From an uncultured Bacteroidota bacterium (GTDB taxonomy: Bacteria; Bacteroidota; Bacteroidia; Chitinophagales; LD1): a stretch of 58,749 bases of DNA. Both the position numbers and the translations under genes were made by a program. The stretch spans positions 1 through 58,749 of the forward strand of contig CAIXGR010000086.1 in NCBI GenBank assembly GCA_903919075.1. Reading direction: 5' to 3'. The notes beneath the pieces are model-generated. The model was given only the letters and a program-made list of their open reading frames with translations. It did no database searches and was not told the DNA's origin. Positions 2,028 through 15,316 of this stretch are shown piece by piece; the first letter of the stretch is position 1; each line of letters begins with the position of its first letter.

Positions 2028-3212
2028 CTATGGCTTATACATCTCGGTTTCCGGGTGAAAACTTTGCCATGAATGCCAGAACTCTTGGTAAGATTGTATT
2101 TTCTCCAGTTGATTGCCTTTCGAAGGGCCATCTATACATAACCCACTTATTTGCCATGTAGAATTGGTTTGCTGGTCGTGCAAAAGAGCAGTGGGGGCAT
2201 CGTATGTAAAGCTTAAACTTTGCCCGTTGATCTTTCTGTTTAACACAAAAAAGTCTTTTGCATTAGTATCAGCAGAAAGTAAGAGCGGAACTCCATCAAT
2301 TGAATCCTGAATAAGTTTTTGATGCTGCAACATATTCCAGTCGTATGCTTTAGCAGCATTATTTACTTTTACACCCACCACCCATGATTTAAATTTCCAA
2401 GAGGCAGAATCTCTTTTTTCCAAACTGCTGTTTATTGTTCCTTCATCAAATCCTTTAAGATTATCGTATCTCCTGGTAAAATTACTATCAGGTAATAACG
2501 TAACGCTATTGGGGTGAAGCTTCAGCCAATCTTCAAGGCTCATTTGTGCTGAAATAATTTCTTTTAATTGTGTTCCTTTTAGTTTGCCTGCTATTGCAAC
2601 TCCGGTGGCTTGTCGCCACCAGCTTTTTGTAGTTGCATCTTCAAACATTGCGTTGAAGTGATCCATCCCCACAAGTCTGAATTTTTCGTATTTACCATTT
2701 ACAACGGGGCTATAAACGCGTCCGGTGCGGCATACGGTGCAATAGGTAACCATAATAGGCTCACCGCCTACAGTATCTAATACCTGATGGTGATAACCAA
2801 TTATTTCAACCGGGTATGCTTTTGATTCGCCGTTAATTAATACGCCAATAATTAATTTATTTAGGTTATGAGTAGTATCGTTAGTAAAGGCTGTAATGCG
2901 TGGCTGGTAAAACATTTTATCAGCCAGAAATTTGAAATTGAAATTGTAGAAAATAAAACCGTAAAGTGCTACTACTATTATTACTGCTATTGTCTGCCAT
3001 AACTTTCCTTTACGCAAATAAAAAATAGCTGGAAAAAGTATTAGCGCAAAAATCAGCAATCGCATCCACCATATATTATTATGAATAAAGTAGGCAATAT
3101 CAATAGTATTAGCCGCCTGACTGCCCGGAAAAGGCATAATAAAATACACCTTTAATATCTCAATTGCGATAAGCATCAATAAGCCAAAACTTAAAAGCCA
3201 GCCCTTTTTCAT
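2028..3212 (-). CDS. DUF3179 domain membrane protein
   Basis: About 394 residues from the start MKKGWLLSFG. An ATG 39 bases further upstream is possible, but it would put a Phe/Tyr-rich stretch before a normal membrane start. Three hydrophobic segments (roughly residues 4-24, 46-66 and 73-92) precede a soluble domain. The soluble part matches DUF3179: ING-x-SKAYP, then GEPIMVTYCTVCRTGRVYSP with a Cys-x2-Cys pair, and later a second copy of the same fold. The family's biochemical role is not known. It follows the SusC/SusD operon on the same strand but is separated from it by a strong terminator, so it is probably its own unit. Confidence 0.8.
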   Translation of the reverse strand: MKKGWLLSFGLLMLIAIEILKVYFIMPFPGSQAANTIDIAYFIHNNIWWMRLLIFALILFPAIFYLRKGKLWQTIAVIIVVALYGFIFYNFNFKFLADKMFYQPRITAFTNDTTHNLNKLIIGVLINGESKAYPVEIIGYHHQVLDTVGGEPIMVTYCTVCRTGRVYSPVVNGKYEKFRLVGMDHFNAMFEDATTKSWWRQATGVAIAGKLKGTQLKEIISAQMSLEDWLKLHPNSVTLLPDSNFTRRYDNLKGFDEGTINSSLEKRDSASWKFKSWVVGVKVNNAAKAYDWNMLQHQKLIQDSIDGVPLLLSADTNAKDFFVLNRKINGQSLSFTYDAPTALLHDQQTNSTWQISGLCIDGPSKGNQLEKIQSYQEFWHSWQSFHPETEMYKP

Positions 3213-3229
3213 ATAGTAGGTTAAATTAT

Positions 3230-3279
3230 AAAAAAAGAGAATACAAAACAAGCAGATGGGCCTGCGTGTTTTGTATTCT
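3230..3279 (-). terminator. Terminator of the SusC/SusD operon
   Basis: On the minus strand a 13-pair stem (AGAATACAAAACA against TGTTTTGTATTCT) encloses a second GCAG/CTGC stem. A run of seven T (bases 3236-3230) follows. It sits between the SusD stop and the DUF3179 start. Confidence 0.8.
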
Positions 3280-3352
3280 TAATTATACCTTGCCGAATAT
3301 TTCTTTACTTTTTCAACAAGGCTTTAAAAAATGGGTTGTTCATGTAAAAGTC

Positions 3353-4660
3353 CTATTGTTCGGTTAAAGGCAACGGAAACTGAGTCCACACCTTATCGCT
3401 TCCTCTATCTAACGGCAGTTGCGTTAACAGATTATACCGACGCATATCAACCCAGCGATGTCCTTCGCAAAACAACGAATACCTTCTCTGATTCAGCATT
3501 TCTGTTTTTAATGCATCTTGCGTAACAAGGCCCGCATAAATTGGCAAGCCATGTCCGGTTCTAATTGCATTAATTGCAGTAACCGCATCGACCAAATTAG
3601 CACCACCTAATTGAATATTCGCTTCGGCGTATATCAAAATCAATTCTTCATTTCTAATAATTGGAATAGGCGCCAGGCTTGATGTATATACCCAAACATC
3701 TCTATCGCTGCTAAGAGAATCAAGCGAAACGGGTGATGTCCTTAAAGTAGCCTTGTTAATTCTATCATCGCTGCCTTCAATTTCTGCAGCATACGAAGGA
3801 TGTGCTACTCTAACCTCGCCTGCTTGGTTTTGAGGAATGAAAAAGCCATTTAACTGGTCGCCTGAGCCTGTTCCGAATACATTAAACACGCCCATGTTAA
3901 AGTTGTTGCCCAATCCAAAAAATGATAAGTTCAAATCGGCTAAAGCGGTACTCCAATCACTTCTGTAAACATCAACCCTGGCAGCAAGCGCACGATTGAA
4001 TTTTACCAAACCTGCCGCATCGTTAAAACCAACAAAACCAGCCAGAGTAAATGAAACCGTGGAACCTGTTAATTCGGTTTGCGCAGCGTTAAGCATGGCG
4101 GCTATAGAATCTAAAGGAACACCAGGGCCAGCTACAATGGGGCCAAGGTTCTTCGGGTCAGCTACATTAATTCTTATGCCATTTGCATAAGTTTGGTTCA
4201 ATGTTAGTAACAACTGATACGCCTTAATAGTCATTGCAAACCCGATGTAGGCTTTTCTTTGGGCATCGGTTATAGATGATGAATTAGTAGCAGCTTGTAT
4301 TAATAAATTACAATTTTTTACTACCGCATAACGGGCTGCCCAGGTATTAGTAATATAAAAATTACTTCCGTCTATGGTAGCATTGTTATAACCCAATAAA
4401 TCGGTAACATATCTTGGTTCAGAGGGCGCGAAATGATACATTTCTCTTCCCAATATTCCGGTAACATCAAGATATAATGCCAGTGAGTTGCGCATTCCCG
4501 ATTCGGTACCGCTAACAAGATTGTTTAGCTGACCCGGAGTAGCATTTTTTAAATAAGACTCCAAAGTGGGGCCATTAAGATTGTCGAAATCTTTTTTGCA
4601 CGATGATAAAAATGAAACCGTGCCTACTAGCAGCACAGTATATATGATGTACTTTTTCAT
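3353..4660 (-). CDS. RagB/SusD family nutrient-uptake lipoprotein
   Basis: 435 residues, starting at MKKYIIYTVLL. The longer frame upstream overlaps the end of the SusC gene and adds no signal. A lipoprotein signal ends at SSC-KKD (Cys about residue 21). The body has the helical, TPR-like SusD fold signals: an N-terminal LNGPTLESYL region, a central AKAYQLL-type helix, and a C-terminal RNEELILIYAEANIQLGG followed by LNQRRYSLFCEGHRWVDMRRYN, the SusD hallmark. It is an outer-membrane surface lipoprotein that caps its partner SusC and binds the ligand. The ligand cannot be read from the sequence. It starts 19 bases after the SusC stop, so the two are co-transcribed. Confidence 0.93.
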   Translation of the reverse strand: MKKYIIYTVLLVGTVSFLSSCKKDFDNLNGPTLESYLKNATPGQLNNLVSGTESGMRNSLALYLDVTGILGREMYHFAPSEPRYVTDLLGYNNATIDGSNFYITNTWAARYAVVKNCNLLIQAATNSSSITDAQRKAYIGFAMTIKAYQLLLTLNQTYANGIRINVADPKNLGPIVAGPGVPLDSIAAMLNAAQTELTGSTVSFTLAGFVGFNDAAGLVKFNRALAARVDVYRSDWSTALADLNLSFFGLGNNFNMGVFNVFGTGSGDQLNGFFIPQNQAGEVRVAHPSYAAEIEGSDDRINKATLRTSPVSLDSLSSDRDVWVYTSSLAPIPIIRNEELILIYAEANIQLGGANLVDAVTAINAIRTGHGLPIYAGLVTQDALKTEMLNQRRYSLFCEGHRWVDMRRYNLLTQLPLDRGSDKVWTQFPLPLTEQ

Positions 4661-4679
4661 AATAATCTTTTTTACTTGT

Positions 4680-7622
4680 TTAGAAATCAAACGAAATATG
4701 GAAATCTGCATGTTTACTTGCCGGGTAAGGATCAACATCTACACCCTGAGAAAAACCGGTACCAAAGTTTGATACCTCAGGATCATAACCCCTATATTTT
4801 GTAATGGTTAAATAATTATGCAACGATACTCCGATAGTTATTGTTTTTAAATATTTGGTGGTAATATTTGTAAAAGAATAATACAACCCTATTTCACGTA
4901 ATTTCATATAACTGGAATTTTCAACGGTTTGCTGTGCGTTTACACCTACCTGAGTGATGTGGTAGAATCCGTCGGGAAGATGAGCAGGGTTAGTAACCTT
5001 ATCGAAATTAGCACTGGTTCCGCCAAAATCATTTTGTAAACTGGTTAGGTTAATGTTTTGTCCACCATATTTCCAATGCAATAAAAAGCGCAAGCTAAGA
5101 TGGCCAAAGAAGGTAAAATCGTTGTAGGTACTCATTTGGAATATAGGTTCTGCATCTCCCAGTACGCCCACTCCGGCACCATTAAGGCCAACAATTTGCG
5201 TGGCTGATTTTCCTTGCTCAATTTGGTATGAACCAATTACGTATCCAAATGAGCCTTGCGGAATTGCAGGGATAGAAAGTCTGGTTACTTTTGATCTATT
5301 AAGCCAGAAACTAAGATTGGTATGCCATGTAACAACTTTTGATTTAACCGGTATAGCATTCATTCCAAATTCAAAACCCTGGTTGCGAAGGTCGCCAGCA
5401 TTTACCCATGCGTTAGTAAAACCACTGGAAGCGGGAAGGCTTTGCAACATTAAAAAGTTGTAAACGGTTTTATTGTAGTATGTCAATTCAAAGCCCAATC
5501 TGCCTTTCAACAAACTAAAATCGATACCGGTTTCAAACTCGGCTTGTCTTTCAGATTGTATTCCTGCTTCTCCTTCTTGTGTGCCTACAAGTAATCCGGT
5601 GTTTCCTGAAATATTTGAAATGGCAAACGAAGTAGATTTGCTACCATATGCTGGAACGCTATTGGCTTGGCCATAAGCAGCACGCAGTTTAATATTATCA
5701 AACACATTGCTCTTTATGCCGGTATGCATTAAATCCCATGATATGCCTGCTTTTGGGTAAGCATAATATTTATTGCCGTTTCCGTTATTTGTAGATTGGT
5801 CGAAACGCACACCTGCTGTTAATGTCACAATATCATACAGGTTAGCTTCTTCTTGTATATAGATTCCATTATTCTGATACTGTGTTCTTACCTGGGTTGC
5901 GGTTAATGCCCCTGCCTGGTTAATATTACTTTGGCCGGAAATTAACTGTGTGGCTATATCTAACACGTTATTATATTTTCCGAACTCTTGTGTAAAGCCG
6001 CCTGACGATGTTAATGAAATTTTATCGGTAGGTGTAAAAGTATTAACCAATGATGCCGTGTAATTAGCGTTCAAATTATTAGTAAGACCCTGAATTGAGG
6101 TTCCTTTATTAACCGCCTGAAATTGCAATTCGCTGGGGAAAAGAACGTTGGTAGTTAAATTGTAAAAATCCACGCCTCCTCTTCCCACAATTTTTGTAAT
6201 GCTTTTATCGCTTTTTTGTAAAATGGCTTCGAGGTAAGCACCGGTAATAAACCGGTTCACTCTTTCGTTATTCTTCATTAGTGCAATAGTTTGCAAAGGA
6301 TTTGCAGCTGCAAAAGGGTTATTAGGATATATGCCATTGGCATCGGGCCCTAATTGTGCAAAACCTGGTGTAGATGAAAGAGCAATACCGGTGGTTATAC
6401 CCGCATTGTCATTGCCAAACAACCCCCTATCTGAAGAAGAATTTATATAGTTAGAGTTAAGGCCAATTTTAATACCGTCGTTAACTTTATGTTCAACATT
6501 TAAACGTGCACTAACATTATTGTAACCGGTGTTTTGAACTATACCCTGTTCGTTTTTTACACCCCCAGCAAAATAGAAAGTTGTTTTAGCGTCGCCACCG
6601 GAAATACTCAATCTTGTATTTCTGGTAAAACCAACATGGCCATATATTTCTTTTTCATAATCGTGCATTGGCATGCCGGCAGCTACTGCCTGATCGTAAG
6701 CCTGAATAAATGTTGGGCTGGCGGCAGGATCTGCTGCCAAAGCAGCATCTGAAAAAGTTCGCACCCCTAACAGTTTACTGGCAGAAACTAAACCAAGGTC
6801 TTGCGAAACAGTAATTTTTGTTTTGCCCGGCGTACCCTTTTTGGTGGTAATAATAACCACACCTGCAGCAGCTTTTGAACCATATGAAGCAGCAGCTGAA
6901 GCACCCTTTAAAATTTCAATATTCTCAATATCATCGGGGTTTATATCGGCTATACGGCTGGATGGGTTATCTTGTATTGAAGTAGGGCCGCCACCTTTAA
7001 GCGCATTGGTTACAGTATTTAAACCGCCTGAAGTTGCGCTATTATCAACCTCAACACCATCTACAACATATAGTGGCTGAGTATTACCATAAACAGATGT
7101 AACACCACGAAGCTTTACCGAAATGCCTCCACCGGGTGCACCTGAATTGGCAATAATATTTGCGCCTGTAATTTTCCCTTCAAGCGCCGCATCGAATGTT
7201 TGCGCAGGGGCAATGCCGTTTAACTCTTCGGCAGAAATGGTGCCTACTGCGTTTGCAAGGTTCCTTCTTTTAACTGTGGTAGCAAGGCCTGTTACAATAA
7301 CTTCATCCAAGTGTGCTACGTCTTCTTCCATAGTTAGCTGTGCATCTGCGGTAATGTCTGCAGCGCTGATAGTCATTGATTTGAAACCTATGTAGCTTAC
7401 CACTACGGTTGAATTTGCAGGAACTGATAATTTAAATCTTCCATCTGCATCTGTAACAGTTCCAAGCGATGTAGATTGTTTAACGGAGATGGTTGCCCCT
7501 ATAATAGGTTTAGCATTTGCATCAACTAAGGTTCCGGTTATGGTTTTATCCTGTGCAAAAATGAAAAAAGGTAATAGCAATAGAAAGACTACTCCTTTTA
7601 ATCGGTGGTATAAATTATGCAT
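4680..7622 (-). CDS. SusC/RagA family TonB-linked outer membrane receptor
   Basis: 980 residues. The signal peptide ends at FIFAQ. A carboxypeptidase-regulatory-like domain follows (about 24-110, ITGTLVDANAKPIIGATISV), then a plug domain (about 120-240) with the RGV-x-SVYGNTQPLYVVDG and DIENIEILKGASAAASYG signatures, then a long beta-barrel ending in an aromatic residue (FHISFDF). It imports a ligand handed over by the SusD partner, using TonB energy. The barrel is slightly shorter than many SusC proteins (usually 1000-1100). No glycoside hydrolase or sulfatase gene is nearby, so this is not a recognisable polysaccharide locus. The next genes upstream on the same strand are the AhpD-like/MFS cluster. 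Confidence 0.95.
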   Translation of the reverse strand: MHNLYHRLKGVVFLLLLPFFIFAQDKTITGTLVDANAKPIIGATISVKQSTSLGTVTDADGRFKLSVPANSTVVVSYIGFKSMTISAADITADAQLTMEEDVAHLDEVIVTGLATTVKRRNLANAVGTISAEELNGIAPAQTFDAALEGKITGANIIANSGAPGGGISVKLRGVTSVYGNTQPLYVVDGVEVDNSATSGGLNTVTNALKGGGPTSIQDNPSSRIADINPDDIENIEILKGASAAASYGSKAAAGVVIITTKKGTPGKTKITVSQDLGLVSASKLLGVRTFSDAALAADPAASPTFIQAYDQAVAAGMPMHDYEKEIYGHVGFTRNTRLSISGGDAKTTFYFAGGVKNEQGIVQNTGYNNVSARLNVEHKVNDGIKIGLNSNYINSSSDRGLFGNDNAGITTGIALSSTPGFAQLGPDANGIYPNNPFAAANPLQTIALMKNNERVNRFITGAYLEAILQKSDKSITKIVGRGGVDFYNLTTNVLFPSELQFQAVNKGTSIQGLTNNLNANYTASLVNTFTPTDKISLTSSGGFTQEFGKYNNVLDIATQLISGQSNINQAGALTATQVRTQYQNNGIYIQEEANLYDIVTLTAGVRFDQSTNNGNGNKYYAYPKAGISWDLMHTGIKSNVFDNIKLRAAYGQANSVPAYGSKSTSFAISNISGNTGLLVGTQEGEAGIQSERQAEFETGIDFSLLKGRLGFELTYYNKTVYNFLMLQSLPASSGFTNAWVNAGDLRNQGFEFGMNAIPVKSKVVTWHTNLSFWLNRSKVTRLSIPAIPQGSFGYVIGSYQIEQGKSATQIVGLNGAGVGVLGDAEPIFQMSTYNDFTFFGHLSLRFLLHWKYGGQNINLTSLQNDFGGTSANFDKVTNPAHLPDGFYHITQVGVNAQQTVENSSYMKLREIGLYYSFTNITTKYLKTITIGVSLHNYLTITKYRGYDPEVSNFGTGFSQGVDVDPYPASKHADFHISFDF

Positions 7623-7771
7623 GGTTAATGTTTTTTCTTTTTAAATAAAATATGAAAAATACTCTCATGTATTATTAATTATGAGATTTGATTAGAAGCA
7701 AATAATGTTGAAATGTTGCTTTAAATAAATTTGAAAACAGATATTAATGCTAAATGATGCTCCTAACCCCA

Positions 7772-7794
7772 GGCTTATCTCACAGAGATAAACC
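7772..7794 (-). repeat. Ten-pair hairpin between the AhpD-like cluster and SusC
   Basis: On the minus strand GGTTTATCTC, a TGT loop and GAGATAAGCC form a nearly perfect stem with one G-T pair. It lies about 150 bases upstream of the SusC start and about 40 bases after the last short frame of the AhpD-like cluster. No T run follows, so it is either a weak terminator, a processing site or a dyad operator in the SusC leader. The rest of the 7623-7832 gap is AT-rich, and I see no gene in it. Confidence 0.5.
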
Positions 7795-7832
7795 AGCTTA
7801 CATCATAACTTTAATAAATTTCAAATCTTGAA

Positions 7833-8087
7833 TTATAACCAACCTAAAAGAAGTTCGGGAGGTTTATCAATAACAGAAGGAGTATATTTATTTATTCCAA
7901 AACTTTTCGAATTGGCAGAATGATTGCCCGACTTTTTGCTTTGAAACAAATGTTGAAGGCCTTTTAATGAAACTTGCTTTTTTGCCGGAGGATTAGCCTT
8001 AAGCTCAACAACATTACTACCCCACAACCAGTCATCAATCTGGTCGTATAAAAGTATTCTTATTAAAAGGGTTGCAATCTGTTCCAA
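7833..8087 (-). CDS. Short ORF in frame behind the first AhpD-like gene
   Basis: 84 residues if read from the TTG at 8087-8085. The frame is the same as that of the preceding AhpD-like gene and begins directly after its TAA stop (bases 8100-8102), with no other stop for about 90 codons. The product (EQIATLLIRILLYDQIDDWL, then VELKANPP, KKQVSLKGLQ and a C-terminal PPELLLGWL) is not recognised. It has no ATG start and no clear ribosome site. It may be a small translated gene, a remnant of another gene, or a former extension of the AhpD-like protein cut off by the stop. Confidence 0.3.
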   Translation of the reverse strand: MEQIATLLIRILLYDQIDDWLWGSNVVELKANPPAKKQVSLKGLQHLFQSKKSGNHSANSKSFGINKYTPSVIDKPPELLLGWL

Positions 8088-8099
8088 GCGGTATAATAT

Positions 8100-8669
8100 T
8101 TATTTCGCAGCTGTAGGCTGTGGTGATTTAAATATATGGTTGCCATATCCTTTCTCAGCCACCTGCTTTGCCCGTAGCGGATAGGTACTTAAATCAGATG
8201 GTGTTATTGCGCCAAGCCCATCAACATACCTGTTGAACATACAAAATGCTGCAGTAATTAAAACAGTATCATGAATATCCTTATCGGTAGCTCCCTCCTG
8301 TTTAGCTTTTGCAACTGCTTCTGCAGTTACATATTTGCCGCCCTTTTGTGCCTGACCTGCTATACGTAACAAGGCTTTTAGTTTATTTGAAATATTGGCG
8401 GTTTCCGGATTTTTTCTCACCTGGTCTACCAATTCTTTGTCTCCGCCCAAATAATAACATGCAATTTCGGCATGCGAATTATGACAATAAAAACAATCGT
8501 TAAGATAAGATACGTAGGTTCCAATTAACTCGCGCTCAACTGGTGTCAATCCGATATTACTACGCAGTATAATTTCAGTAAAAACTCCCAATGGTTCTGC
8601 TGTGTCAGGACTGAAAGCCATTAGTCCCCTAATTCCGGGTAAATCATTATTCAGTTCAATGTGGGGCAT
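8100..8669 (-). CDS. AhpD-like (CMD family) protein, copy 1
   Basis: 189 residues, in the carboxymuconolactone decarboxylase/alkylhydroperoxidase AhpD fold, peroxidase-related group. The redox motif is complete: ERELIGTYVSYLNDCFYCHNSH gives Glu47, Cys59, Cys62 and His66, the AhpD pattern in which the two Cys cycle between thiol and disulfide and the His/Glu relay protons. The C-terminal half has GATDKDIHDTVL and NRYVDGLG, typical of this group. By eye it is about three quarters identical to the next copy (8877-9443), so the pair is a recent tandem duplication. It has its own 207-base upstream gap (8670-8876, AT-rich, nothing coding seen), so it may have its own promoter. The natural substrate is unknown; peroxide or quinone chemistry is inference. 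Confidence 0.88.
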   Translation of the reverse strand: MPHIELNNDLPGIRGLMAFSPDTAEPLGVFTEIILRSNIGLTPVERELIGTYVSYLNDCFYCHNSHAEIACYYLGGDKELVDQVRKNPETANISNKLKALLRIAGQAQKGGKYVTAEAVAKAKQEGATDKDIHDTVLITAAFCMFNRYVDGLGAITPSDLSTYPLRAKQVAEKGYGNHIFKSPQPTAAK

Positions 8670-8876
8670 ATGGGTTTACCTTTAATTAATGAATTACTTG
8701 TTGCAGACTTGTAAAAGCCAAAATAGGATTTTTTTATTATAAATTATAATAACCGGAATATTTTTGCAGGGTCTAAACTTGCAATTTTTTATACAATAAT
8801 GTGATTAGCATATTATTACAAAGCCAATCAAAGCTTGCAGAGGAAGTTATTTAGAGTTCTTTTTTAACAGTAGCTT

Positions 8877-9443
8877 CTATTGAGCAGTAGGTTGTTTTGC
8901 CGAAAAAATGTGATTGCCATATCCGTTTTCTGCCACCTGTTTTGCACGCGGAGGATAGGTGCTTAGGTCGGTTGGTGTTATTGCGCCCAAGCCATCTACA
9001 TACCTGTTAGCCATGCAAAACATAGCAGCTATTAAAACAGTATCGTGAATATCCTTATCAGTAGCCCCTTCCTGTTTTGCTTTTGCAACCGCTTCGGGCG
9101 TTACATATTTGCCGCCGTTTTGAACCAATGCGGCAATATTGAGCAGTGCTTTTAATTTGTTTGAAATATTTGCAGCAGCAGGATTCTCTCTAACATCATC
9201 AACAAGCTCCTTATCACTATTAAGATAATGGCAGGCAATTGCAGCATGGGCGTGCTGACAAAAAAAACAGTCGTTGAGATAAGATACATGCGTGCCTATT
9301 AATTCTCTTTCAGTAGGAGTTAAACCGTCATTACTGCGCAGCAATATTTCAGCTAACAAATTCATAGGTTCGGCAGTTGCCGGGCTAAAGGCCATTAAGC
9401 CACGCATTCCGGGCAAGTCATTTCCTAAATTAATGTGGGGCAT
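8877..9443 (-). CDS. AhpD-like (CMD family) protein, copy 2
   Basis: 188 residues from MPHINLGN. A longer frame starting at 9512 would add a hydrophobic leader, but all paralogs begin with this MPHI-type sequence, so the shorter start is preferred. The motif is complete: Cys59-x2-Cys62-x3-His66 in LNDCFFCQHAH, preceded by TERELIG. The C-terminal half is nearly the same as in copy 1 (AVAKAKQEGATDKDIHDTVL, NRYVDGLGAITP). If the longer start were real, this copy alone would carry an N-terminal membrane or signal segment, which a translation-start assay could show. Confidence 0.88.
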   Translation of the reverse strand: MPHINLGNDLPGMRGLMAFSPATAEPMNLLAEILLRSNDGLTPTERELIGTHVSYLNDCFFCQHAHAAIACHYLNSDKELVDDVRENPAAANISNKLKALLNIAALVQNGGKYVTPEAVAKAKQEGATDKDIHDTVLIAAMFCMANRYVDGLGAITPTDLSTYPPRAKQVAENGYGNHIFSAKQPTAQ

Positions 9444-9514
9444 ACACAAATTTGTTTTAATAATACATATAACTAATAATAAATATAAAACACACTTTTT
9501 GAAGAAAACCAAAA

Positions 9515-10096
9515 TCAGCCTTTCTCCGGCAGTTCACCGGGGACTACTCTTTGCAAGTTCATATTAGTGTAGCCTTCCTCCGCCCGTATTTTAGCACGTT
9601 CTACGTATATCTGCCTATCTTGCGGTGCCCAGGTTCCTAACCCATCTACATAGCGGTTAAACATGCAGAAAGCAGCAGCAATTAGAACTGTATCATGTAT
9701 TTCTTTATCAGTGGCACCCACTTTTTTAGCTTGCGTTATTTGCTCGGGTGTTACGTACTTGCCGCCTTTTTGTACGCTTCCGGCAATGGCTAATAATGCC
9801 TTTAATTTATCTGATATTTGTGCTGCAATCGGGTCCCTCTTAATATTATCAATAAAGGGCATATCGCATTGAAAATAATGCTGCGCCAAGGCACCATGCA
9901 CGTTTTGACAAAAGAAACAATCGTTGAGCGATGATACGTAGGCGCCTATCATTTCGCGATCGCCGCGGCTGAGTGTGTTATCATCAGAATGCAATAAAAT
10001 TTCGGCAAGCATGTTTAACGGCTTTTCCGTATCAGGGCTATAGGCCATTAAACCGCGTATACCTGGTAAATCATTTTTCAAATCAATATGTGCCAT
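9515..10096 (-). CDS. AhpD-like (CMD family) protein, copy 3
   Basis: 193 residues. It keeps the CxxCxxxH motif (Cys60, Cys63, His67 in LNDCFFCQNVH) and the GATDKEIHDTVLIAAAFCMFNRYVDGLG block. It is one residue longer than the others before the motif (DDNTLSRGDREMIG). It is closest to copies 1 and 2 in the N-terminal KNDLPGIRGLMAYSPDT segment. It starts five bases after the stop of copy 4, so the two are translated from one message. The C-terminal tail (NLQRVVPGELPEKG) is not shared with its neighbours. Confidence 0.88.
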   Translation of the reverse strand: MAHIDLKNDLPGIRGLMAYSPDTEKPLNMLAEILLHSDDNTLSRGDREMIGAYVSSLNDCFFCQNVHGALAQHYFQCDMPFIDNIKRDPIAAQISDKLKALLAIAGSVQKGGKYVTPEQITQAKKVGATDKEIHDTVLIAAAFCMFNRYVDGLGTWAPQDRQIYVERAKIRAEEGYTNMNLQRVVPGELPEKG

Positions 10097-10101
10097 AAAA
10101 T

Positions 10102-10650
10102 TTATTTAGCTGGTGGTGGTAATACATATCCTTTTTCTGTCATTCGTTTTCCCATCTCCTCATATACTGCCGGATCGGTTGGGGTAAAGCTTGCAAGGCC
10201 ATCAACATAACGGTTGAACATGCTAAAAGTCGCCGCTATTAAAACAGCATCATGAATTTCTTTATCGGTAGCGCCCGTGGCTCGTGCAGCTGCAACATCC
10301 TCAGGCTTTACCTCTTTGCCCAATATTTGAACCTTACCTGCAATGTTTAGCAAGGCTTTCATTTTGTCACTCGCTTTCGAGTGTTGCATATCGTTCAATA
10401 CATCATCTACAACATCCATCTCGTCGCCATATAAACAACGAGAAGCTGCAGCATGGCTGCTCATACAAAACATACAGTTATTGCGCGCTGAAACATATGC
10501 CGCAATTAATTCCCGCTCCGCCTCTGAAAGAGAAGATTTGCCCCGCAATAGAATCTGCGCCAACTCGTACAAAGGCTTACCGGTTTCGGGCCTAAACATT
10601 ACTAAACTTCTTATACCGGGAACACCCTCCGGCACTTTGATGTGTGGCAT
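10102..10650 (-). CDS. AhpD-like (CMD family) protein, copy 4
   Basis: 182 residues, with the motif Cys59-x2-Cys62-x3-His66 in RNNCMFCMSSH. The C-terminal block reads GATDKEIHDAVLIAATFSMFNRYVDGLASFTP. It is more diverged than copies 1-3: the N-terminus reads KVPEGVPGIRSLVMFRPETG, and Met residues flank the active Cys pair. It sits 35 bases after the MFS transporter stop and five bases before copy 3, so it belongs to the transporter transcript. Confidence 0.88.
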   Translation of the reverse strand: MPHIKVPEGVPGIRSLVMFRPETGKPLYELAQILLRGKSSLSEAERELIAAYVSARNNCMFCMSSHAAASRCLYGDEMDVVDDVLNDMQHSKASDKMKALLNIAGKVQILGKEVKPEDVAAARATGATDKEIHDAVLIAATFSMFNRYVDGLASFTPTDPAVYEEMGKRMTEKGYVLPPPAK

Positions 10651-10685
10651 ATTTTATTTTATATCATTCCCTATTAATAAAAAAT

Positions 10686-11942
10686 CTAATCAATAACAAC
10701 CGCAACATTATCAAGTGATGCCTGAGGAGATTTTTCTTCGGATAAAAAAGTTACTATTAACCCCAGTACAAAAACCAATGAAAAAACGAACAATGCGTTT
10801 CCGTAACCTCCAAAAAAAGATTCCAAAATACCTATAAATAATACAGCAGTGCCTGTAAACAGCCTGCAAATATTAAAACAAAAACCTGTTGCCGTAGAGC
10901 GTATGGCTACCGGAAATAATTGCGGTATGTAAACAGCCAATACTCCCTGACTTATACCAAAGAAAAAAGAGAGACAACCGATTTCAGCATAAATTACCGG
11001 ATTAAATACATTGTTTGTTTTGAACAAAAGAAATGCTGCTAAAGCACAGAATGTGTAGCATAATATTAACGCCCTTCGCGAGCCTATGGCGTTCATTACC
11101 CAACCTGAAATAAAGCTACCGGTAAGACCGCCTATTCCAAAAATCATCATAGTAAAGCTGCGTTTTTCCTGTGCGTCAGCCTCGCCAGCTATGCTTTGTA
11201 CCCAGGTGGGCAGCCATGAAAAAATAGCCCAAAGACCGATAAGCATAGCACCGAACACCATAGCACCTACCATAAGTTCTTTACGGTGATGAGAGGCGAA
11301 AATGCTTACCTGTTTTAAATTGTTGTTGCTCACCCTATCTCGTTCAGTCAACCAGCTTTCCGATTCTTTCAGCAGCCATATAGAAATAATGCCCACAGCC
11401 AGCGGAATTACACCAACGCCAAACCCTTGCCGCCATGAACTGACAAAGAAGTTAATAGCACCGGCAGAAAAGATACCGATGGGCATAGAAACTGATGCCA
11501 TGCCAATATATACTGCCCTGCTTTTTGCAGGCCATTCTTCAATCATAATTGTTGTGGTGGCTACCATTATGCCCCCCATACCAAAACCGGTGATGAACCT
11601 ACACAATACTACGCCCCACCACGTTGGCATAGTACCGGTAAGCACTGTAAACAGCCCATAACATATAATAGAATAAACAGTTGCCTTTTTTCTGCCAGCC
11701 TTATCGCTTATATAGCCCCATATAAAGCCGCCGAATGCCCAACCAAAAATAAAAACAGCATTAATGTAAGCGCTTATGTAGTTAAGTTGAAGGGCATCTT
11801 TACTGCCCATAAGACTATTAACTACAACAGGCAAGTAAACCGACATTAGCCCAGACACTACGCCTGCAAAACCAATTACAATAAAGCAAATGGCAAAAAG
11901 TATCCAATGATATCCGGTAATTTTATCGGTTGTTGAACTCAT
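10686..11942 (-). CDS. MFS transporter inside the AhpD-like cluster
   Basis: 418 residues with about twelve hydrophobic segments. The loop between segments 2 and 3 carries the MFS signature GYISDKAGRKKATV (about 75-88). The repeated signature in the second half is GWVMNAIGSRRAL. The N-terminal motif pattern and the GFGMGGIMVATTTIMIEEWP segment place it among the metabolite:H+ symporters (sugar, aromatic acid or nicotinate-like carriers). The substrate cannot be read from sequence. It starts two bases after copy 5 and ends 35 bases before copy 4, which ties transport to whatever the AhpD-like proteins act on. Confidence 0.92.
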   Translation of the reverse strand: MSSTTDKITGYHWILFAICFIVIGFAGVVSGLMSVYLPVVVNSLMGSKDALQLNYISAYINAVFIFGWAFGGFIWGYISDKAGRKKATVYSIICYGLFTVLTGTMPTWWGVVLCRFITGFGMGGIMVATTTIMIEEWPAKSRAVYIGMASVSMPIGIFSAGAINFFVSSWRQGFGVGVIPLAVGIISIWLLKESESWLTERDRVSNNNLKQVSIFASHHRKELMVGAMVFGAMLIGLWAIFSWLPTWVQSIAGEADAQEKRSFTMMIFGIGGLTGSFISGWVMNAIGSRRALILCYTFCALAAFLLFKTNNVFNPVIYAEIGCLSFFFGISQGVLAVYIPQLFPVAIRSTATGFCFNICRLFTGTAVLFIGILESFFGGYGNALFVFSLVFVLGLIVTFLSEEKSPQASLDNVAVVID

Positions 11943-11944
11943 AC

Positions 11945-12505
11945 TTATTTTTTTAAATGGTCGTAGCCTTGTGGTAAGCGATTATAGCCATGTTGTTTAA
12001 GCCGTTCTCCTAACCCCTGGTAAAACTCAGGGGCATCGGGTGTTACGGTGGCAAGGCCATCCACATAGCGGTTGTATAAACAGAATAAGGCTGCTATAAG
12101 AACGGTGTCGTGAATCTCAAGATCTGTTGCGCCTTCGCTTTTCGCTTTTTGTATAGCCTCAGCTGTTACGGTTTTGCCACTTACCTGTACTTGCGAGGCT
12201 ATGGTAAGCAATGCCTTCATTTTATTACTTACGGGCGCTGTGTCAATATTTTGCTTTACTTTTTCGGCAGTTTCTTTTTCGCCTAATAAAATATCGGCAG
12301 CGGCGGTATGTGCAGTTGCGCAAAACTTACATTGGTTGCGATAAGACACAACAGTTGCTATCAGCTCCCTTTCGCCTTCGGTAAGGGTTGAAGGACCGCG
12401 CAGCAAAATCTGCGTAAGTTCGCGAATGGGTTGAGCGGTTTCTTTACTGTACTCCAACAAGCCTGTAATGCCTGGCAAGTGATCTTCTAACGGAATATAA
12501 GGCAT
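11945..12505 (-). CDS. AhpD-like (CMD family) protein, copy 5, first gene of the minus-strand cluster
   Basis: 186 residues, with Cys59-x2-Cys62-x3-His66 in RNQCKFCATAH and the C-terminal block GATDLEIHDTVLIAALFCLYNRYVDGLATVTP. It leads the minus-strand operon (copy 5, MFS, copy 4, copy 3, then copies 2 and 1 after larger gaps). The start at ATGCCTTATATTCC matches the N-termini of the other copies. Its upstream region is shared with the divergent copy 6 (12506-12719), so the two directions are probably co-regulated. Confidence 0.9.
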   Translation of the reverse strand: MPYIPLEDHLPGITGLLEYSKETAQPIRELTQILLRGPSTLTEGERELIATVVSYRNQCKFCATAHTAAADILLGEKETAEKVKQNIDTAPVSNKMKALLTIASQVQVSGKTVTAEAIQKAKSEGATDLEIHDTVLIAALFCLYNRYVDGLATVTPDAPEFYQGLGERLKQHGYNRLPQGYDHLKK

Positions 12506-12660
12506 AGCCCGGGGGGATTACTGTTTATGAATAATAACTGCAATACAATACTAAGATAACTAAAATAAAAATCTTTTGACAAGCATGAGTTTTGTTAAAA
12601 CCTAAAAGCTTGTTAATGTATTAATATAATGTCTAATTTTTCCAAAAGCAATTTTTATTT

Positions 12661-12668
12661 TACATTTG
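12661..12668 (+). promoter_or_regulatory. Candidate -7 box for copy 6 in the divergent region
   Basis: TACATTTG is a perfect match to the Bacteroidota -7 consensus TAnnTTTG, 52 bases before the ATG at 12720. The -33 region holds only a partial TTTG-like TTTT at about 12637. It lies in the 214-base gap between two divergent AhpD-like genes. For the opposite direction only a weak TAGTATTG (12553-12546, minus) was found. Confidence 0.45.
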
Positions 12669-12719
12669 TTTCAGACAACCCAGAAGTATTTTTGTTAAAC
12701 CCATTAAAATTTCAATACT

Positions 12720-13304
12720 ATGGCATTTATTCAAACAGGTATACAGCAGCCAGGCATTCTTGAGCTATTGTTTTATAAAGGCCCAACAGGCAAAGCCCTA
12801 TCAGATTTAGCGCAAACTCTTCTTCATGGACCTTCTACCCTAACGCTTGGAGAAAGAGAACTTATTGCATCTTATGTTTCAAAATTGAATGATTGCGAAT
12901 TTTGTTATGAATCGCATGGCGCCGCAGCCAATGCACATATGAATGACAACGGACAATTATTAAGGGCTGTGATTAGCAATGTTGATACTGCGCCTGTGTC
13001 GGAAAAAATGAAATCGCTTTTAAAAATTGCAGCCAAGGTTCAAAAAAGTGGCCGCGAAATGAAGGCTGAACATGTACAGGCTGCTAAAAAAGCAGGCGCT
13101 ACAGATGAAGAAATTCATGATGCCGTTTTGATTGCTGCTGCTTTTTGCATGTATAACCGCTATGTTGATGGCTTGGGCACCAGCCTGCCTAAGGCAAAAG
13201 CCGATTATGTACCTATGGGTAAAAGAATAGCCCGCAGAGGATATAAATACCCGCCCCTGTTTATGCGCAAGTTTGTTATTTGGATGATGAGCAAAAAGAA
13301 CTGA
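12720..13304 (+). CDS. AhpD-like (CMD family) protein, copy 6, divergent
   Basis: 194 residues, with Cys59-x2-Cys62-x3-His66 in LNDCEFCYESH and the C-terminal block GATDEEIHDAVLIAAAFCMYNRYVDGLG. It is the only copy on the plus strand and starts with MAFIQTGIQQPGI, the most diverged N-terminus. Its C-terminus extends into a basic and hydrophobic tail (RRGYKYPPLFMRKFVIWMMSKKN) absent from the other copies, which may touch the membrane. A clear terminator follows, so it is a single-gene unit. Confidence 0.9.
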   Translation: MAFIQTGIQQPGILELLFYKGPTGKALSDLAQTLLHGPSTLTLGERELIASYVSKLNDCEFCYESHGAAANAHMNDNGQLLRAVISNVDTAPVSEKMKSLLKIAAKVQKSGREMKAEHVQAAKKAGATDEEIHDAVLIAAAFCMYNRYVDGLGTSLPKAKADYVPMGKRIARRGYKYPPLFMRKFVIWMMSKKN

Positions 13305-14767: not shown

Positions 14768-15316
14768 CTATTTGCGGGGCAGCCATGGGGTTTCTTCGGC
14801 CCCCAAATCTTTAGCCATTTTACGGCATAGGGTAAACAGATAATCGGAAAGGCGATTCAAATATTTAATAACAAGAGGATGAATTTCGGAATCGATGTTT
14901 AATGCTACACACAAGCGCTCAGCCCTGCGGCACACAGTTCGCGCTATATGGCAATACGATACATTAACGTGCCCGCCGGGAAGAATAAAATTTTTAAGCG
15001 GCTCTAATTGCTCGTCAATTGCATCAATAGCTTTTTCAAGCAATTCAATATCTTCTTCGTGTATTCCTGGTGTTTTAAGTTTTGCTTTATCAGGGTCGGC
15101 AGCAAGGGTTGAGCCTAATGTAAAAAGTCTGTCTTGTATTTCTTTCAATAACTCTTTAATAGCATTATCGGTTTGCACATCGCGCACTAAACCAATCCAT
15201 GAGTTTAACTCATCAACTGTACCATAGGCTTCAATTCGCAATTCACTTTTCAAAACCCTTTTGCCACCGAAAAGTGATGTTTCGCCAATATCTCCCGTTT
15301 TGGTATAAATCTTCAT
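14768..15316 (-). CDS. PduO-type ATP:cob(I)alamin adenosyltransferase
   Basis: 182 residues, normal for the family. The N-terminus [20 protein letters not shown] is the ATP-binding motif, and [16 protein letters not shown] follows. The C-terminal helices carry LPGG and [10 protein letters not shown], then [14 protein letters not shown]. It transfers the adenosyl group of ATP to cob(I)alamin, making adenosylcobalamin in the cytoplasm. Its ATG overlaps the stop of the ABC ATPase gene by four bases (ATGA), so the two are translationally coupled. That pairing does not reveal a shared pathway. No cobalamin riboswitch was seen upstream. Confidence 0.95.

Follow-up and report, generated by a model that had tools for sequence, protein, structure and literature searches.

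Four conserved classes of AhpD-like genes around an MFS transporter in a recurrent Bacteroidota locus with SusC, SusD and DUF3179 genes

A row of AhpD-like genes (the CMD family) enclosing one MFS transporter gene was studied on contig CAIXGR010000086.1 of an uncultured Bacteroidota bacterium; the whole 58,749-nt contig stretch is referred to here as the window. The five minus-strand CMD genes belong to four classes, A to D, and the same classes hold their places beside transporter and receptor genes in several other Bacteroidota families. A preliminary description had placed the feature at 7833–13304, ending with the CMD and MFS genes. However, genes for SusC, SusD and a membrane DUF3179 protein continue the row on the same strand, and the natural unit, judged by the sequence, is 2028–12505 rather than 7833–13304. 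Our reading, tentative and a little short of an even call, is that this conserved locus serves to bring a compound from the outer membrane to the cytoplasm and to convert it by means of several non-redundant thiol enzymes.

Most members of the large CMD/AhpD family are named only by fold. All six copies in the window exceeded the 23-bit gathering score of PF02627 (CMD / AhpD-like), and the best NCBIfam model of each was TIGR01926, ‘peroxidase-related enzyme’, with five copies (82.3 to 95.7 bits) above its cut-off of 81.8 bits and copy 3 below it. The AhpD core-domain model TIGR00778 was above cut-off in three of the six. No full-length AhpD model was found among the NCBIfam matches to E 1e-3, and no decarboxylase-named model (PcaC, 4-carboxymuconolactone decarboxylase) among those of any copy, the library having been left unchecked for the presence of either; no AhpC was recognised by eye among the open reading frames (ORFs) inspected. 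In the alignment R-E, C-x2-C and x3-H were kept in 6/6 copies, so that the active-site motif with its preceding Glu is intact throughout, as first described, and a C-terminal IHD...NRYVDGL block was common to all six.

The ORFs and model matches also confirmed six AhpD-like genes around one MFS gene, with minus-strand gaps of 2 (copy 5/MFS), 35 (MFS/copy 4) and 5 bases (copy 4/copy 3). The gaps further along are 71 (copy 3/copy 2), 207 (copy 2/copy 1) and 477 bases (copy 1 to SusC), followed by 19 bases from SusC to SusD and 101 from SusD to DUF3179. The 19-base gap depends on a SusD start set by eye at 4660 from the signal peptide, the automatic ORF call beginning at 4738; copy 2 is taken from the ATG at 9443, its automatic call beginning at an upstream TTG. 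The start of the feature at 7833 did not hold: an 84-aa ORF (7833–8087) between copy 1 and SusC is not a CMD, has no Pfam match and is probably no gene.

Table 1. Genes of the locus and the adjoining divergent CMD gene, in window coordinates
Feature	Position	Strand	Evidence
CMD copy 5, class A, directly before MFS	11945..12505	-	TIGR01926 95.7 bits (over cut-off); class A clade 100/99
MFS transporter, organic-ion type	10686..11942	-	nearest named models TIGR00895 (aromatic acid/H+), MhpT, sialate
CMD copy 4, class B, directly after MFS	10102..10650	-	TIGR01926 95.3 bits; clade B 99/99
CMD copy 3, class C	9515..10096	-	TIGR01926 78.6 bits, below cut-off 81.8; clade C 100/99
CMD copy 2, class D (duplicate)	8877..9443	-	model match, tree
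CMD copy 1, class D, nearest SusC	8100..8669	-	model match, tree, position
SusC/RagA-type TonB-dependent outer-membrane receptor	4680..7622	-	TIGR04056 507 bits vs cut-off 368
SusD-type outer-membrane lipoprotein	3353..4660	-	PF07980 59 bits vs cut-off 23
DUF3179 protein: N-terminal helices, two Rieske-like beta domains, CxxC	2028..3251	-	PF11376; model pLDDT (predicted local distance difference test) 88
CMD copy 6, divergent, probably resident solitary-type	12720..13304	+	groups 100/99 with CMDs without MFS

Relatives were collected by scanning one-per-species genomes with the six-copy alignment; at least 542 were confirmed and the best 80 loci were kept. With the window these make 81 loci, whose counts describe close relatives and not the phylum. 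Genes were called by longest ORF and some CMDs beneath overlapping ORFs were missed; some loci are fragments at contig ends, and in one (L104) no CMD gene was called. In all, 223 CMD genes were found in 80 of the 81 loci. A window-type MFS gene was present in 49/81 loci. SusC was found in 22, or 25 if fragments count, and is separated from the CMD genes in L084 and L096. SusD occurred in 19 loci, DUF3179 and a second kind of TonB receptor in 22 each, a MetE-like protein in 16 and a PF00756 esterase in seven, while 38 loci encoded a small protein, c2. The usual order, which varies, was CMD, (TonB receptor), MFS, CMD, CMD, (MetE-like, esterase), CMD, SusC, SusD, (CMD), DUF3179. Absence of the arrangement elsewhere had been set beforehand as a refutation; in fact several Bacteroidota families show A-MFS-B-C together with D-SusC-SusD and DUF3179, and the recurrence of this order in other genomes excludes chance. 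Together the classes span Chitinophagaceae, Sphingobacteriaceae, Cytophagaceae, Fulvivirgaceae, Flectobacillaceae and Saprospiraceae (by record name), and the named carriers include Mucilaginibacter gossypii, Segetibacter koreensis, Spirosoma endophyticum and Parafilimonas terrae.

Frequency in the phylum was taken from an even draw of 392 genomes at least 90% complete. With a match threshold of E<=1e-40, a match was present in 27 of these and three or more copies in 10 (the window's own genome included in both counts), so the statement that AhpD-type genes are normally single holds as a tendency. Each of the ten multi-copy genomes had at least three CMD copies within about 6 kb, and in each of the nine others an MFS-type gene, by best BLASTP match, lay near the CMDs.

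Classes A, B, C and D were recovered in both of two trees, a FastTree with 220 CMDs and an IQ-TREE with 88, of which 79 come from 23 loci chosen by hand and nine from other genomes. The IQ-TREE support was 100/99 for A, 99/99 for B, 100/99 for C and 99/84 for D, where one row (L112) had a very long branch. Class went with position. The CMDs directly before an MFS or TonB receptor gene were class A in 42/42 cases and those directly before SusC were class D in 18/18, while the 48 directly after the MFS gene comprised 36 B, 11 C and one D. The window contains one A, one B, one C and two D. Its copies of different classes are 42–59% identical to one another; the best orthologues of copies 1–5 reach 69–84% (84% for copy 5 of class A, 79% for both copy 4 of B and copy 3 of C, 72% and 69% for copies 1 and 2 of D). 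The trees and identities thus indicate not a local amplification of recent paralogues, but an old set of classes held apart; since these old classes were kept apart, they are probably non-redundant. A class C CMD was also seen on a short contig without MFS in a genome of the same genus (L163, genome G012), 84% identical to that of L071.

Copies 1 and 2, described at first as a recent duplication, are sisters (100/96) and 78% identical, with dN (nonsynonymous divergence) of 0.16 and dS (synonymous divergence) of 2.6. As dS is saturated, the duplication is lineage-specific yet not recent. With dN far below dS, this pair is under purifying selection, the reverse of the relaxed selection that would have spoken for decay; for other pairs and orthologues dS was mostly outside the range of the method and dN/dS ratios are not given. 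That the copies are selected rather than decaying also agrees with the classes having stayed distinct in the trees. In its general lines the first interpretation was supported as regards recurrence, selection and distinct classes, and not supported as regards the recency of the duplication, the place of copy 6 and the limits of the unit.

Copy 6 had been counted in the set. In the IQ-TREE it falls, with support of 100/99, among CMDs from its own genus (G003) and order (G037, G052) that lack a window-type MFS alongside, and because these are solitary CMDs it is probably a neighbour of the operon and not a member. Its placement in a further class, E, in the FastTree (support 0.73) was rejected, as the IQ-TREE moves it to the group just named; its identity to class E does not exceed 50%. 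One tally of class E by locus still includes the window. One further CMD-family match lies in the same genome away from the locus (contig C27).

The classes are inherited together with the transport genes. Class A was present in 46/81 loci, 44 of which had the MFS gene. Class D was present in 23/81, with SusC in 22 (the exception being L112) and the other TonB receptor in one. Conversely, only one of the 22 loci with the other TonB receptor had SusC (L084, where SusC is kilobases off). In the window SusC and SusD are adjacent and both exceed their model cut-offs (Table 1). No carbohydrate-active enzyme was found among the scanned window ORFs, a scan that covered part of them; in relatives trehalase (3/81), polysaccharide deacetylase (4/81) and GH18 (L103) genes occur near the operon, though only outside it.

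The best named models for the window MFS protein are TIGR00895 (144.1 bits, cut-off 418.55) and MhpT (106 bits, cut-off 410). With scores far below these cut-offs, it is by sequence a relative of the aromatic acid:H+ symporters, not a member. Its nearest solved structures are SLC22 organic-ion carriers, which cover only about residues 48–222; we considered deducing a substrate from them, but they point to none.

Next we compared the cysteines of the CMDs. Of the 220 proteins, 218 reach the motif (L073 and L083 do not), which reads CxxC...H in 209, TxxC...H in eight and CxxR in one broken-looking case (L110). Retention of the active site in all copies is thus true of the window and has exceptions among relatives. 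TxxC was confined to class A (2/45) and class B (6/38), so that the first cysteine was lost in 8/83 A and B members and 0/134 others (Fisher p 0.0004, not corrected for relatedness). The second cysteine was kept in 217/218. AhpD-like CxxU seleno-forms are catalogued in PMC9312934, and excerpts of PMC13188914 include a CxxU seleno-form of this subfamily, by its TIGR01926 entry; these forms likewise single out the second motif position as the catalytic one. The TxxC members mean that a two-cysteine peroxidase cycle, or an internal disulfide, is not needed in every A and B protein, and the TxxC proteins may work without a redox change or rely on a partner. Selenocysteine among the CMD matches found here was considered and rejected: the in-frame stops in three of them (TGA in G374 and G088, TAA in G248) are all at the protein end.

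The DUF3179 protein was modelled (pTM, the predicted template modelling score, 0.84) as long N-terminal helices, probably three membrane spans, followed by two beta domains. Foldseek gave no match at E<=0.001 (best 0.014), though the domain-sized matches with probability near 1.00 were Rieske domains, with a few unrelated chains beside them. A second structure search gave Z scores up to 9.3 across both halves of the protein, where best values of 7–8 are common without a clear match. The 50 matches listed are, by title or by fold, chains of Rieske type. The model leans towards a Rieske fold, a case resting on the uniformity of the match list more than on Z. In sequence, all 22 DUF3179 members (window included) have CxxC, not CxH; 21 entered the alignment, the fragment from L093 being left out. 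By eye, the CxxC sits at the place of the first Rieske ligand loop and the second loop is not recognisable; no Cys-x-x-His follows the CxxC in the window protein, so the Rieske ligand set of two Cys and two His is lacking. No literature linking Rieske and DUF3179 was found in the paper library searched. Seleno-forms of DUF3179, UxxC or UxxT, appear in the catalogues excerpted from PMC9312934 and PMC13188914.

On the uptake-and-conversion reading, SusC and SusD, or elsewhere the other TonB receptor, would bring a compound through the outer membrane, and the MFS protein would move the compound or its product, probably a small organic acid, across the inner membrane. Four non-redundant, cytoplasmic CMD types, A to D, would then each act on it in thiol-dependent reactions whose essential nucleophile would be the second cysteine of CxxC, while DUF3179 would act as a membrane-anchored periplasmic redox partner. 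We infer uptake as the direction because of the linkage to TonB-type receptors, and a multi-step conversion because SusC/SusD or a TonB receptor, an organic-ion MFS and, in some loci, an esterase and a MetE-like protein lie nearby. Among the 16 MetE-like neighbours, one zinc-site-like pattern as written was found in eight and a second in all 16; we take the two to look like the MetE zinc site. Protein distances of the CMDs correlate with those of the MFS (r 0.67 for A, 0.73 for B, 0.74 for C), and those of A with the TonB receptor (r 0.88).

Several observations weigh against this reading. The distance correlations include the species tree, and class D tracks SusC (r 0.46, 19 loci) less than the MFS (0.56, 19 loci), which argues against neat modules. 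Class A occurs without the MFS in two loci (L058, L075). With each transporter model that it matches, the MFS protein scores far under the cut-off, and given these scores import and an acid substrate are guesses. No ring-cleaving family was found in a scan that covered a minority of the neighbours. Finally, the set is patchy, with the MFS in one of 18 genus genomes. Precedents and neighbours that favour a stress role, given next, count on the same side.

The locus could instead serve defence, a serious rival though in our view rather unlikely: the CMD classes would remove different reactants (hypohalites, allicin-like disulfide stress, electrophiles) and the MFS would export the products. The AhpD-like proteins with experimentally examined roles are protective, according to excerpts of the relevant papers: RclX, which has CxxC, is required against HOCl and HOSCN (PMC7950407), and in the PfAR-1 clone tested allicin resistance depends mainly on ahpD (PMC7119367). 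Genes like PAP2 / vanadium haloperoxidase lie within eight of the 81 stretches (L036, L047, L049, L067, L077, L081, L098, L108) and also in L148 and L154. Four Mucilaginibacter loci have OsmC-like genes close to the operon, and in L154 it is adjoined by a protein whose Crp-like matches are weak and below cut-off. However, export would leave the linked SusC/SusD or TonB receptor without an obvious role, and the loss of the first cysteine from 8/83 A and B members speaks against defence as well.

It is still less probable, and in our view improbable, that two or more CMD classes form one hetero-oligomer, the classes being its subunits. The co-inheritance of the classes in fixed order and the confinement of first-cysteine loss to A and B would suit such an enzyme, as would the 12 chains of three of eight solved relatives (2prr, 3c1l, 6k40; two or six in the other five). 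Unlike what an obligate complex would show, however, nine loci (the window not counted) have class E but no B, and the class C member L163 stands alone on its short contig, without MFS or other classes. That there is no system at all, only duplicates held by drift beside unrelated transporters, would suit the patchy distribution but is scarcely credible given position-specific classes across families, co-inheritance, the low dN of copies 1 and 2 relative to dS and, weighing strongly, the recurrence of the order.

Among the titles and abstract starts listed in searches of one paper library, none deals with such a locus. The solved TIGR01926 relatives (2prr, 3c1l, 2pfx, 2oyo, 6k40) belong to the same subfamily, by score, as 5/6 copies and have CxxC and His in common with them; by title 2prr, 2pfx and 2oyo are uncharacterised, 3c1l is a putative antioxidant and 6k40 an AhpD. 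Unlike these, the window combines four co-inherited classes and uptake genes in a single operon. RclX of Pseudomonas aeruginosa and AhpD of allicin-resistant PfAR-1 are, by description, AhpD-like thiol proteins too. RclX is reported to have four of the five AhpD catalytic residues and is encoded, unlike the window genes, in a single-gene operon beside rclR (PMC7950407), and the PfAR-1 ahpD lies beside oye/4-ot/kefF/kefC with dsbA/trx (PMC7119367), again unlike the window; the excerpts of both papers do not mention SusCD. Bacteroidota SusC/SusD loci of the polysaccharide utilization type likewise have the pair co-oriented with enzyme genes, but the enzymes of the window operon are CMDs, accompanied by an MFS.

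A more far-reaching possibility, doubtful at present, is a whole pathway or one mixed enzyme made from diverged AhpD-like thiol proteins, with its own outer and inner transport and a Rieske-derived DUF3179 thiol protein. If true, this would be a new kind of metabolic locus, not built from unrelated enzymes. Four classes holding their place beside transporters at family-level distance offer a handle on CMD/AhpD roles beyond peroxide removal, and the culturable named carriers would allow the substrate to be found through transport and growth tests.

The flanks of the operon were read in 12 relatives. Genes for cobalamin adenosyltransferase, an ABC protein and TrpS were present in 12/12, GatC in 11 and the window's 13562 gene in five; the operon was at that site in 0/12, in some of which contig ends are close by, and no exact junction was found. 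This patchiness, with operon-free flanks, is consistent with either acquisition by transfer or repeated loss. The GC content of 0.414 at 8100–12505, compared with 0.384 at 14768–58749, is a weak hint.

A mostly acidobacterial CMD clade (one member named Nevskia) comprises 21 loci, none with the window-type MFS; an Oar-type receptor, an amino-acid permease or another MFS lies near some of them. Loci of this clade (L060, L072, L086, L106, L113, L115 and others) have diverged CMD pairs without the window-type MFS, and in L061, L106 and L113 the permease adjoins the CMDs, the Oar-type receptor doing so in some others. The PAP2 / vanadium-haloperoxidase-like proteins are found in several lineages, often with two unassigned neighbours, c13 and c16, and only some pass the VCPO or PAP2 cut-off. 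In the window no gene for protein c2 was found close to the operon. The protein had no Pfam match, and its model (pLDDT 75) gave no structural match at E<=0.001. It is conserved in relatives (37 of 41 members entered the alignment), has about 185 aa with one long N-terminal helix, and is usually encoded before class A (L057:3970–4530, L099:11235–11789). In the window, the ORF at 175–810 encodes a secretion-system C-terminal sorting domain (Por_Secre_tail) and is perhaps the rear of a repeat protein with its front at 841–1806.

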